IMG/VR virus record: IMGVR_UViG_3300009068_000128
Coordinates: 1-30,142 of that record
DNA from: a virus
DNA: 30,142 nucleotides
Direction: 5' to 3' (one strand)
The position numbers and the translations under genes are program-made. Position 1 is the first letter of the stretch. Each line of letters begins with the position of its first letter. Under the pieces are notes generated by a model. That model was not told where the DNA came from and searched no databases. It worked only from the letters and a program-made list of their open reading frames with translations. Shown here in pieces: positions 1 to 3,497 of this stretch.

Positions 1-1391
1 GCTTTTACTGCTGGCTCGGCAGCTGGAGTTATTGGTTGTGTTACTACCGGCACTGCAGCTGGTTGAGATGTTGTCTCTGGTGCAGGTGGAGGCTCTACTA
101 CTGGTTTCGCAGCTGGTAGTTCAGTTGTTGCTGGAGCAGCTGGAGCTGGTGGTTTGGTTGGTGGCTCTGCTGCTACCGGTGTTGCAGCTGGCGATGCTGG
201 TGCTGGTACTACAACTGGTTCTTTTGTTGCTGGCGTAGCTGACGGTTCAGATAATCCTGGAGCTGCTACAGATGCAGGTGGAGCTGCTACAACCGGCGGA
301 TTCGTTGGTGCTGCTGGTTGATTTACTGTTACTGGAGCCGATGGTTGTTGAATTCTAGACGCGTCTTCCTGGGAAATAGGATTTCTTGCGTTGTGTCTTT
401 CTAATTCTGCTTCTATTCTAGGAATAGAATTTCGCGCAGCAACGCCATTTTGACCTGGTCTGTTTGCTAACTCTCTCGCTCGAGCTAGCCTTTCCATTAT
501 TCTTTGTCTTTCGGGATCTTCTAGATTTTCCGTAAGACCAGCCTGCTCTCTTCTTTCCTCAGAACGTTGTCTTTGCGCATCGAGTACAGGTTGTTCTGAT
601 GGAGTGACATTTTGTGTATCACCCATCTGGCTAACGTCGCCAAGATTTTCTCTAGTAGCTTCTTGCTGACGCTCAGCAGTTGCCAGTTCTTCTGGGCTCG
701 GTGGAGGTGGCGCTGGAGTTTGATCTTCATCTTCATCGTCGTCTTGTTCGTTTTCAGGTAAAGAATTAAACTCTTGCCAAAGTTGATACAGAGCATAAAC
801 ATCCGAAACAGCGAGACCGATAGTAACTGCTGCGACAAGCCAACCAGCAATAGGAACCGTAGCTAACCCCGCACTCGTAGCTAATCTAGCTCCTATTCTG
901 GCGAATATCGCAGGCGCTCTTCTACGTAGAAATCTCATAAATCTAGACCAGCGAGATCTAGGAGATCTAGTTCTTGCTGTTGGTTTTTGACGGCGTTCTG
1001 GTCTATCTAATCCAGGTAGATCAGGAATATTCGGTCCGTCGTTTTCTCCACCACCCAACAGCCCAGGCAATAATGAAGCTGACTGAGGATTAGATGATCT
1101 TTTCAGACCAGACAGAATCTGTTCTAGTAATTGATTTTGTTTACTTTGCGCGTCAATAATCGCATTGAATGTATCGTTGTTTTTGCTGAACGAAGCATTC
1201 AACGATGTTCTAGTTCTTTTAGAATCGTACTCTTCTCTGTCAGTTTTAGAACCAGAACTTTTATTTAGAATCCTACCAAGCGTAGGAAACATTTTATTGA
1301 ACGCAGCAGACCCAAGTCTCGTTGCTGCACGCGCAGCTCCACTAGCAATTGATGTTACTCTATTTGCTGCCGGTAGAGCTCTTTTTGCCAT
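1..1391 (-). CDS. Pro/Ala/Thr-rich membrane-anchored phage protein, N-terminal part (runs off left edge)
   Basis: A minus-strand frame stays open from ATG 1391-1389 to the window edge (463 codons, C-terminus missing). The start overlaps the stop of the holin-like gene (TAATG), which suggests translational coupling. Residues 1-60 are basic. A short helix rich in Gln and Leu follows (about 75-95, FNAIIDAQSKQNQLLEQIL). An Arg-rich stretch (about 125-160) leads into a hydrophobic segment (about 170-200, containing ATVPIAGWLVAAV) that is a likely membrane helix. An acidic cluster (DDDEDED, about 215) and a charged helical region come next. From about residue 345 the protein is almost only Pro, Ala, Thr, Val and Glu, like an extended linker, so a further domain may lie beyond the edge. 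I do not recognise the family. Its place after the gp26- and holin-like genes allows a hub, tape-measure-like or lysis role, but nothing visible decides this. Confidence 0.75.
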   Translation of the reverse strand, partial: MAKRALPAANRVTSIASGAARAATRLGSAAFNKMFPTLGRILNKSSGSKTDREEYDSKRTRTSLNASFSKNNDTFNAIIDAQSKQNQLLEQILSGLKRSSNPQSASLLPGLLGGGENDGPNIPDLPGLDRPERRQKPTARTRSPRSRWSRFMRFLRRRAPAIFARIGARLATSAGLATVPIAGWLVAAVTIGLAVSDVYALYQLWQEFNSLPENEQDDDEDEDQTPAPPPPSPEELATAERQQEATRENLGDVSQMGDTQNVTPSEQPVLDAQRQRSEERREQAGLTENLEDPERQRIMERLARARELANRPGQNGVAARNSIPRIEAELERHNARNPISQEDASRIQQPSAPVTVNQPAAPTNPPVVAAPPASVAAPGLSEPSATPATKEPVVVPAPASPAATPVAAEPPTKPPAPAAPATTELPAAKPVVEPPPAPETTSQPAAVPVVTQPITPAAEPAVK

Positions 1392-1852
1392 TACGATCTA
1401 CCTGCAATCTTTTCTTGACCGCGTGTCCAAGCAGCTACACCAAGAATAGCGCCGAATGCCATATGAATCAAACCACCACTAGACAAAGTCAAAGGCTGCC
1501 AGGTTGTGTATGGGAAATCCACACCAACAACATTTCTGAATATCGGTAGGATAATAGAGAGAAGCGGAAATATTATAAAATCAAATGCGCAGATAGCCAT
1601 ATACAGCCAACCCATCGCCGGACGCCAATATGTTTTAGCCCAGTGATCGTTTTGTTTTGCTATCTGATCTTTTGCTATCATAGCATCGATCTCAGCCTGA
1701 GCCAGACCGACTGCTGGGTTCATCTGCGTTTGAGATGAACCAAAAGTACCCACAGGAATTCGAGATGAGTTATTGATCGCTCTCACTTCATCCTGCGCAG
1801 GTCTTGGGAAACTATTGTCGTCATCCGGATCCGGTGTTGCAAATCTAGGCAT
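1391..1852 (-). CDS. Holin-like membrane protein of T4-type phages
   Basis: This 153-aa protein has a polar N-terminal half and two or three membrane segments (about 80-106 and 122-142). The pattern W-RPAMGW-x-YMAICAFDFIIFP, then a loop, then TLSSGGLIHMAFGAILGVAAW, then a charged tail (RGQEKIAGRS) resembles the holin-like proteins of marine T4-type phages and, more loosely, the 3TM holin family of gene-transfer agents. Such proteins would make holes in the inner membrane to release endolysin. The start is ATG 1852-1850: AGGAG (1858-1862) lies five bases before it, whereas the upstream in-frame ATG at 1873 lacks a comparable site. The start overlaps the end of the frameshift ORF by eight bases, and the stop overlaps the next start. 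No endolysin gene is adjacent in the window. The family call rests on recognised patterns; the lysis role is inferred. Confidence 0.6.
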   Translation of the reverse strand: MPRFATPDPDDDNSFPRPAQDEVRAINNSSRIPVGTFGSSQTQMNPAVGLAQAEIDAMIAKDQIAKQNDHWAKTYWRPAMGWLYMAICAFDFIIFPLLSIILPIFRNVVGVDFPYTTWQPLTLSSGGLIHMAFGAILGVAAWTRGQEKIAGRS

Positions 1853-2027
1853 TTTTTCTCCTGTGCTCTTCAAGCTCTTTTAGATATTGCAGGAGCATTT
1901 CAACAAAGATGTCACGTTCGAAAGGATAAAGATTTTCAATATCTGCAACAGAATATTTATGGTGTTGAACCAGCGAGAATATGGAAACGTAGTAATTCTC
2001 TAGAGTATTATGGTTCAATCCAACGTA
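1845..2027 (-). CDS. Small -1 frame ORF after the gp26-like gene; probable frameshift extension
   Basis: This 60-codon frame begins directly at the slippery run and ends at TAG 1847-1845. It encodes a compact, helix-forming peptide with the motif YSVADIENLYPFERDIFVEM, followed by a charged helix (LLQYLKELEEHRRKNA). The only early start is TTG 2018-2016, overlapping the gp26-like stop, with no clear ribosome-binding site; the first in-frame ATG lies deep inside the conserved motif. The frame is exactly -1 relative to the gp26-like gene and is entered by a slip on T_TTT_TTT. The product would then be a 297-aa fusion. Similar short PFERD-type peptides follow the gp26-like gene in other marine T4-type phages, as far as I recall. 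In T4, hub assembly gene 51 lies directly after 26, but I cannot show homology to gp51. A separately started 57-aa protein remains possible. Confidence 0.55.
   Translation of the reverse strand, partial: YVGLNHNTLENYYVSIFSLVQHHKYSVADIENLYPFERDIFVEMLLQYLKELEEHRRKNA
1954..1961 (-). promoter_or_regulatory. Possible T4-type late promoter box CATAAATA before the holin-like gene
   Basis: The minus strand reads CATAAATA, one base off the T4 late consensus TATAAATA. It lies about 100 bases upstream of the holin-like start, inside the small -1 ORF. A late promoter here could boost the holin-like and following gene separately from the upstream genes. Seven-base AT-rich matches can occur by chance. Confidence 0.3.
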
Positions 2028-2737
2028 AAAAAATCTGAGAGCGTTGTTAGCTCAATCACCCTATTGTTTCCATTCTTGTTTTTGTATTCGATCTTGTAAT
2101 ACAACTTGGGAACATTGGACATAAAGTCTTGTATCTTTTGAAAAACATCAACACCGACATCGTCAAGGAATTGTTCTATTTCTTTCTTGGTGTAGTCTGA
2201 TGGATCGAAGATATCGTCACCGTCGTAGATCTTATCGATACAACGAACAATCAATTCGTAAAATGCATCGTCGCCTGATTTCAAAAACTCTTTGTCATCA
2301 AACAAAGATGCTGGCGGATAACGCATCTGAATTCCCATGTCGTCGGTGATCTTTACGACCCTCTCAACCTTTTCCGGGAACTTGACTTCGATTTCTTTCA
2401 GATCAATTTCAAAATTGTATAGCTCTTGATCTTCGTTGTCTCGGTAAGAAACCTTCACGACGTTATTGACAGACACAGATCTCAGCTGAATGAAGAGATA
2501 CTCTAGATCGAAAATAGCCAGCTTATCAACATCAAATGAATCATTGATAGCGCAGTTGTTTACGACTTGCTTGATTGCTCTGAGCATGTCACCTGAATCT
2601 TCCGATGCCTTAGCCATCAACAGAAGCTTCTCTTCCTTGACTAGGAACGGGCGGAAAGGTTCTACTTTCTTACGATCGAAACCAGATGATGGAATATGAA
2701 ATTCGTAAATTGGGTGTTTGATTTTAGGTAGTGGCAT
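2015..2737 (-). CDS. 26: gp26-like baseplate hub assembly protein (T4_baseplate family)
   Basis: The 240-aa protein starts MPLPKIKHPIYEFHIPSS and continues with FRPFLVKEEKLLLMAKASE (about 28-46), then CAINDSFDVDKLAIFDLEYLF. This is the typical opening of the T4_baseplate family that includes T4 gp26 (208 aa). The family acts in assembling the baseplate hub and is not a major part of the finished virion; a chaperone role resembling the lambda G tail chaperone is my inference. ATG 2737-2735 is preceded by GGAG at a good distance. The stop (TGA 2017-2015) comes just after a slippery T run, so a longer 297-aa form is likely. The neighbour upstream is the tail-tube-fold protein, 22 bases away. In T4 the order 26-51-27-28-29-48-54 also groups this gene with tube and hub genes. 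Confidence 0.75.
   Translation of the reverse strand: MPLPKIKHPIYEFHIPSSGFDRKKVEPFRPFLVKEEKLLLMAKASEDSGDMLRAIKQVVNNCAINDSFDVDKLAIFDLEYLFIQLRSVSVNNVVKVSYRDNEDQELYNFEIDLKEIEVKFPEKVERVVKITDDMGIQMRYPPASLFDDKEFLKSGDDAFYELIVRCIDKIYDGDDIFDPSDYTKKEIEQFLDDVGVDVFQKIQDFMSNVPKLYYKIEYKNKNGNNRVIELTTLSDFFTLD
2027..2033 (-). other. Slippery heptamer T_TTT_TTT (candidate -1 ribosomal frameshift site)
   Basis: Seven T residues on the minus strand sit in zero frame as GAT TTT TTT ACG TTG GAT TGA, so both tRNA positions can re-pair perfectly after a one-base backward slip. The gp26-like stop follows five codons after GAT (four after the last TTT is counted out as ACG, TTG, GAT). The -1 frame is open for the next 60 codons. 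I see no strong upstream Shine-Dalgarno or clear downstream stem; an eight-base palindrome (CTCTAGAG, 1998-2005) is the only nearby symmetry. RNA polymerase slippage on the T run would give the same fusion. Confidence 0.55.
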
Positions 2738-2759
2738 AATGTATCTCCATTGTTAATGT

Positions 2760-3497
2760 TTATGATCCTGTTTGGAATACTGGTGTCGGTGATACTTCGC
2801 CATTTAGACCAATAAAACCTTCATTTCCAACTGCTTGATTGACACCTGTTGGTGGTCTAGGCGATTCAGTTCTTTGCGGAACTACTTGTGCTGTTTGACC
2901 AGGACCTATAGTTGCACCAGATTCATATACACCCATGTCGTAACCACTGTAAAACCATTCTTTGAATGAAAATCTTACACTGAATTCATACAGGCGATTA
3001 TTTTCGCTCCAAGACAAACTAACATCACTCAACGAAATCGGAAAAGCTTCTTTCAAAATGATAGCGTTGGTTTGACGACCAGCATTATCAAAAACAAATA
3101 TTTGAATATCTGTCTGATAGTACTGTTTGTATTCAACTTTATAGCTAGGCTGACTTCCTCCACTCACCCCAGTATAGTCAAATATCCCATTCATCCATTT
3201 CGCAAAGTATTTCCAAAAAGCATTGTTATTGTTATCGAGGAAGTTGATATCAACGTCCGTGAAGTTTACATTGGTTGGGAATTTCTGTGATGGACCCACA
3301 CCATAACGCGAAACGTTTTGAGTGTCTAGATCGACTCCGGGAACTTTTACTGAGTTCGCTCTGTATTCGATTGATCTTTGTACCACTTCGAACCCATTTT
3401 GCAAAATTATGGGCGGTGGGATTCTTACAATGAACTTGTTAGTTTGGACAGTTCCACTATTATTTATGTGAGCCGAAAATCTTGCGATGTTGAACAT
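2760..3497 (-). CDS. Tail-tube-fold protein, probably baseplate tail-tube initiator (gp54-like)
   Basis: This 245-aa protein carries the core pattern of T4-type tube proteins: a lead beta strand (NKFIVRIPPP), a segment ending in KVPGVDLDTQNVSRYGVGP (about 50-70), then FTDVDINFLDNNNNAFWKYFAKWMNGIF (about 79-105), and a late strand set (ISLSDVSLSWSENNRLYEFSVRFSF) as in gp19-like tube subunits. A Pro- and Gly-rich tail of about 50 residues is added at the end. Proteins of this fold either form the tube (gp19) or start it on the baseplate (gp54, gp48). Its place beside the gp26-like and gp4 genes, far from any sheath or portal gene seen here, favours gp54-like, but gp19 is not excluded. The start overlaps the stop of the upstream gene (TAATG). 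Confidence 0.55.
   Translation of the reverse strand: MFNIARFSAHINNSGTVQTNKFIVRIPPPIILQNGFEVVQRSIEYRANSVKVPGVDLDTQNVSRYGVGPSQKFPTNVNFTDVDINFLDNNNNAFWKYFAKWMNGIFDYTGVSGGSQPSYKVEYKQYYQTDIQIFVFDNAGRQTNAIILKEAFPISLSDVSLSWSENNRLYEFSVRFSFKEWFYSGYDMGVYESGATIGPGQTAQVVPQRTESPRPPTGVNQAVGNEGFIGLNGEVSPTPVFQTGS

Follow-up and report, generated by a model that had tools for sequence, protein, structure and literature searches.

In phage lambda, the tail module holds, beside the tail tube gene, a gene for a short tail assembly chaperone (gpG) with a slippery sequence, GGGAAAG, near its 3' end; slippage at this site adds a C-terminal domain encoded in the -1 frame to give the long form, gpGT. G-T frameshifting of this type was described in a 2016 review as conserved in long-tailed phages "except T4" (PMC5009743). 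For T4 itself, PMC3004832 lists gp26 and gp51 among the hub assembly chaperones. According to two papers that cite their work (PMC10885494, PMC12846349), Vladimirov, Gautam and Davidson (2022, Virology 566:9-15) identified the tail assembly chaperone genes of T4-like phages; in PMC12846349 they are the source given for poly-T -1 slip sites within these genes, and in PMC10885494 for T4-like phages with separate short and long genes. Judging from the match in architecture, these chaperone genes are presumably those for gp26 and gp51. In the group of phage Adele (Vandenendeviridae/Andersonviridae, PMC12846349), the short chaperone gene likewise has a poly-T -1 slip site at its end, which is conserved family-wide and takes the form of a GTTTTT motif. 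Finally, the gp51 proteins of cyanophages and marine vibriophages were described as lacking the first ~200 residues, in a paper in which the word frameshift is absent (PMC3037559).

Here, we analyzed a viral sequence of 30,142 nucleotides (IMG/VR record IMGVR_UViG_3300009068_000128; hereafter the window) from an uncultured T4-like phage that very probably makes a short and a long chaperone by a one-base slip on seven T's (Table 1). The gp26-like ORF starts on the minus strand with the ATG at 2737-2735 and ends with the codons GAT (2035-2033) TTT (2032-2030) TTT (2029-2027) ACG TTG GAT TGA (2017-2015). Because the zero-frame codons are GAT TTT TTT, the seven T's at 2033-2027 lie in the T_TTT_TTT (X_XXY_YYZ) phase. 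No stop interrupts the -1 frame before the TAG at 1847-1845; read through the slip, the sequence is ...LSDFF|YVGLNHNTLENYYVSIFSLVQHHKYSVADIENLYPFERDIFVEMLLQYLKELEEHRRKNA, so that the predicted long form has 297 aa (237 + 60) and the short form 240 aa. An earlier note on this DNA had read the heptamer, the TGA and a -1 frame open to 1845 in the same way and had proposed forms of these two sizes; the positions were confirmed on the sequence and the sizes are correct.

Table 1. Positions of the chaperone locus and its neighbours in the window.
Feature	Position	Strand	Basis
Tail tube protein gene, immediately upstream	2760..3497	-	phrog_45 tail tube, 1.1e-30
Shine-Dalgarno motif GGAG of the gp26-like gene	2745..2748	-	sequence
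gp26-like short form of the tail assembly chaperone, 240 aa	2015..2737	-	PF12322 and phrog_150 matches
Slippery heptamer T_TTT_TTT	2027..2033	-	phase read on the sequence; conserved in relatives
Zero-frame stop TGA of the short form	2015..2017	-	0-3 codons past the slip in 91/93 representatives
Stem 5' arm TTGAACCA	2011..2018	-	pairing and covariation
Stem 3' arm TGGTTCAA	1965..1972	-	pairing and covariation
-1 frame extension, 60 codons + TAG, gp51 C-terminal domain	1845..2027	-	phrog_634
Holin-like gene, next downstream	1391..1852	-	phrog_3427 holin, 7.7e-08
Large ORF, 463+ aa, runs off the window	3-1391	-	no PHROG match, no Pfam match above cut-off

Like lambda gpG/gpGT, the locus combines a short chaperone, a correctly phased X_XXY_YYZ heptamer shortly before the short ORF ends and a C-terminal domain in the -1 frame; as part of the tail module, it adjoins the tail tube gene. 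It differs from lambda in its slippery sequence and in its gp26-type body of ~235 residues, which has no fold match among solved structures. Furthermore, the gene directly downstream is holin-like and, unlike in lambda, is not a recognisable tape measure gene. The system of Vladimirov et al., as represented in the citing papers, resembles the window locus in its short and long T4-like tail assembly chaperones; however, T4 derives the two forms from two genes, whereas the window locus is predicted to frameshift. Phage Adele is similar in its slip site but belongs to another phage family. The gp51 proteins of cyanophages (S-PM2, S-ShM2 and others) carry the window's extension domain at 48-60% identity among the best 60 records and are encoded in the -1 phase behind gp26, as in the window. 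In these phages the heptamer is T_TTT_TTC rather than T_TTT_TTT and gp51 is annotated as a separate gene.

The gp26-like ORF matched PF12322 (T4_baseplate, E 2.1e-54) with residues 23-237 on profile positions 13-218 of 219, and phrog_150 (baseplate hub) at E 1.8e-60. PF12322 thus covers the short form over its length, placing it in the T4 gp26/gp51 family. An AlphaFold2 model of the short form (pLDDT 91) had no match in the PDB below E 0.78, and so no fold shared with a solved chaperone; its best structural matches in BFVD were other T4-like gp26 and hub proteins. The missing PDB match concerns common descent with lambda gpG, not how the locus works. The extension matched phrog_634 (baseplate hub assembly catalyst, i.e. 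gp51) at E 2.2e-21. When the two parts were fused, the phrog_150 score rose and phrog_634 aligned over residues 190-295, as expected if both families contain full-length fusions.

We pooled loci from 80 IMG/VR relatives of the window gp26, from scans with the gp26 of S-PM2, HTVC008M, phiM7 and ValKK3, and from named isolates. The zero-frame gp26 stop was readable in 258 loci, which form the denominator of the phase count. The gp51 domain lies in the -1 frame in 257 of these 258 relatives and in none was it split from gp26 in any other phase; the 258th, from a Campylobacter phage, is a single long ORF. The heptamer was present in 256 of the 257 loci with a -1-frame domain, as T_TTT_TTT in 105 and as T_TTT_TTC in 151. 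In the one locus with this domain and no heptamer call (L180), gp26 is cut short by a stop at codon 162, probably through a sequence error. Because homopolymer runs are error-prone, and because Campylobacter phage CJLB-13 has a single long ORF, we considered whether the shifted frame as a whole could be a sequencing or assembly error in what is really one long ORF. However, the same layout is found in the finished isolates S-PM2, HTVC008M, phiM7, ValKK3 and S-CAM1 and in more than 240 other loci. The finished genomes effectively refute an error of this kind, and we assign it a negligible probability.

In a non-redundant set of 93 sequences (<80% identity), the codon preceding the two Phe codons is GAT, AGT, TCT, AAT, GCT, ACT or CAT: the amino acid varies among Asp, Ser, Asn, Ala, Thr and His, and the third base is always T. 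In the rest of gp26, Phe is encoded by TTT in 60% of cases and the fraction of third-base T is 0.35-0.68 for Asp, Ser, Ala, Thr and Asn. Using gp26's own codon usage and taking each of the 93 sequences as independent, the chance of NNT-TTT retention is ~10^-43, a value that is too extreme, since the sequences share ancestry. The heptamer was likewise present in 27 of 27 representatives with <50% identity, which were drawn from loci already having it (256/257). Conservation of the heptamer and of the -1 phase is far beyond chance, and the sequence architecture is under strong nucleotide-level selection. Two marine relatives (L194 and L220) keep the heptamer and have a zero-frame stop eight codons downstream.

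We next consider where translation of the extension could begin. Its sole candidate start is the TTG at 2018-2016, which overlaps the TGA and is preceded by poly-T with no Shine-Dalgarno. In principle, coupling to the gp26 stop could let ribosomes start at this TTG and translate the extension as a small gene of its own, a stand-alone gp51. The TTGA overlap is a typical coupling arrangement, and many cyanophage records annotate gp51 as a short gene of its own; S-PM2, for example, has an ATG 5 nt after the start of its gp26 stop codon. However, the TTG is common only to the window's near relatives and a few others, and just 32 of the 93 representatives have any -1-frame start within 15 nt of the gp26 stop. 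None of the 93 combines such a start with a Shine-Dalgarno; by comparison, a Shine-Dalgarno precedes gp26 itself in 54. Even when the search was extended to the first 16 codons, a start with a Shine-Dalgarno was found in only 3 of 93, and 53 lack any ATG, GTG or TTG among the first 12 codons of the -1 frame past the slip. Thus, the representatives do not have the start codon and ribosome-binding site of a stand-alone gp51; what they have is the G/GT-type arrangement, a conserved overlapping -1 frame with no initiation site of its own. Several phages also annotate nothing in this position, or start gp51 inside the conserved domain, and a separate gene would leave the T run, its phase and the downstream stem unexplained. 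We therefore judge a separate gene very unlikely, in agreement with the earlier note, which had found no convincing start or ribosome-binding site and had argued that the small ORF is not a gene in its own right. Although cyanophage gp51 has no usable start, annotations often show it as a gene of its own or omit it. In several cyanophages (L084 2501-2656; L094 2001-2159; L096 2001-2147) the gp51 domain is unannotated or its start has been placed inside the conserved domain, because the domain lacks a start of its own.

The region downstream of the heptamer is predicted to fold. The 60 nt starting 5 nt past the heptamer had a mean z of -2.57 relative to shuffled sequences (61% below -2), compared to -0.23 (5% below -2) for a control stretch of gp26. 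RNAalifold returned no consensus structure from the alignment of the window clade or from that of 23 cyanophage sequences, and stems were therefore tested by naming them; the window-clade stem rests on individual folds (32/38) and on pair counts for the stem that we named. In most relatives this stem has 9 bp and begins one base earlier than in the window (2019), 7 nt past the heptamer. In the window clade, alignment columns 15-23 pair with columns 62-70, and 93.4% of cells are paired compared to 18-39% when the stem is slid. Three of the pairs have double changes (25 double-change cells), and the covariation score was reached in 0 of 500 shuffles. Columns 21 and 64, for example, are CG in 14 sequences, UA in 11 and UG in 11. 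Because the column 21 base is a silent third position when read in the -1 frame, protein constraint alone does not account for its covariation.

A single stem common to all clades was considered and rejected, as the window-clade stem is formed by 0 of the 23 cyanophage sequences. One cyanophage clade has a different 11-bp stem (94% paired, one double-changed pair) and a second has yet another (91% paired, no double change); with so few double changes, covariation is weak in both. These clade-specific stems all start 5-10 nt downstream of the slip site. We think it about as probable as not that the stimulator has been rebuilt repeatedly, with different helices at this distance from an invariant T_TTT_TTY, and that T4 and its kin later replaced the device with two genes. 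We found no earlier description of the downstream stems in the accessible literature, in which Vladimirov et al. 2022 is represented by citations of it.

The heptamer and the stems also bear on a transcriptional origin of the long form, in which slippage of RNA polymerase on the T run would insert one extra U into some mRNAs, and these would encode the long form. The T run is present in nearly every locus and the protein outcome would be the same. However, RNA polymerase slippage usually needs about nine T's, and 52 of the 93 representatives have only six consecutive T's, which is short for the polymerase. Moreover, the X_XXY_YYZ phase is invariant and the stems lie 5-10 nt downstream, as at ribosomal sites. 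We consider polymerase slippage a scarcely credible source of the long form.

We favor with high confidence a model in which the locus is one tail assembly chaperone gene that yields two products via a -1 ribosomal slip on T_TTT_TTT, helped by a stem-loop. Most ribosomes would terminate at the TGA of the gp26-like frame, yielding the 240-aa short form. A minority would slip back one base on T_TTT_TTT, with both Phe tRNAs re-pairing with TTT, and the stem-loop 7 nt downstream would probably stimulate this step. In the -1 frame the slipped ribosomes would no longer encounter the TGA and would go on to translate the 60-residue gp51 domain, so that their product would be the 297-aa long form. The phase of the heptamer, the conservation of the -1 frame, the missing usable start and the covarying stem of the window clade are properties that can be read on the sequences; slippage itself, and its efficiency, we infer by analogy with lambda. 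By the same analogy, the short and long forms may play the roles of lambda gpG and gpGT towards the tape measure and tail tube proteins. In E. coli constructs, U_UUU_UUU is much less shift-prone than A_AAA_AAG (PMC5009743), and the yield of the long form may therefore be low or host-dependent.

The earlier note had further proposed that the T4-type gp26 family works by frameshifting. This probably holds for the lineage of the window but not for T4. T4 gp26 (208 aa, ending GLKEFFELL) and T4 gp51 (249 aa) both match PF12322 and phrog_150 and align with each other at E 2e-06, and phrog_634 is matched by the C-terminus of gp51 only, not by gp26. T4 gp51 is a single ORF composed of a gp26-like body and the extension domain, and genes 26 and 51 lie on opposite strands (L085 11803-13229). 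T4 itself does not frameshift: its gp26 resembles the short form, and its gp51, encoded by a gene of its own, is a full-length long form. Since the two are separate paralogous genes, the gp26 family as a whole does not work in the same way. A profile built from 70%-non-redundant extensions matched the gp51 of T4 (8.8e-08), Xman (1.6e-09) and Aeromonas phage 25 (7.8e-13). In T4, Aeromonas phage 25 and an RB43-like phage, it matched gp51 and not gp26. The extension, which shares its phrog_634 match with T4 gp51, is thus homologous to the C-terminus of full-length gp51 and belongs to this family. In the RB43-like phage (L097 2001-3294) the long gene precedes the short one, adjacent and on one strand, a second layout of the duplicated chaperone.

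A tree of gp26 bodies places T4-type gp26 and gp51 in one group that excludes the frameshift forms (98/93). The tree has long branches and a midpoint root and was used only for this grouping, which is consistent with a duplication in the T4 lineage. The frameshift arrangement occurs in ValKK3, which is classed with T4 in the family Straboviridae. The Campylobacter long form was not placeable in the tree. In phage CJLB-13 (L092) it is a 246-aa single ORF with a gp26-like body and a gp51 domain that ends at about 2180, and BFVD holds a gp26-like hub protein of Campylobacter phage CP220. These records suggest that Campylobacter phages, too, have the T4-like two-gene layout.

Collectively, these data support the view that, in a large group of T4-like phages, most of them uncultured, one chaperone gene has two products. 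They also bear out the earlier note's link between T4 hub assembly and G/GT chaperone logic, although this link had been published in substance and, as the citations of Vladimirov et al. 2022 in PMC12846349 and PMC10885494 indicate, is not new. What we add is a further member predicted to frameshift, a broad test of conservation and the downstream stems. The short/long pair is reached by two routes: predicted slippage, in the window, cyanophages, a pelagiphage, alphaproteobacterial phages and those of the KVP40 type; and two genes, in T4, RB43-like phages and Aeromonas phages. This natural comparison makes the required short-to-long ratio testable.

Finally, we examined the genes that follow the chaperone. 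The holin-like gene has an AGGAG of its own and an ATG that overlaps the extension at its end (ATGCCTAG); its match to PF11351 (5e-05) is just under the Pfam cut-off. The large ORF beyond it has a basic N-terminus and a long Ala/Pro/Val-rich C-terminal part and, lying downstream of the chaperone, is a candidate tape measure or tail-associated protein. In HTVC008M, an annotated tape measure gene follows the extension with one small gene between them.
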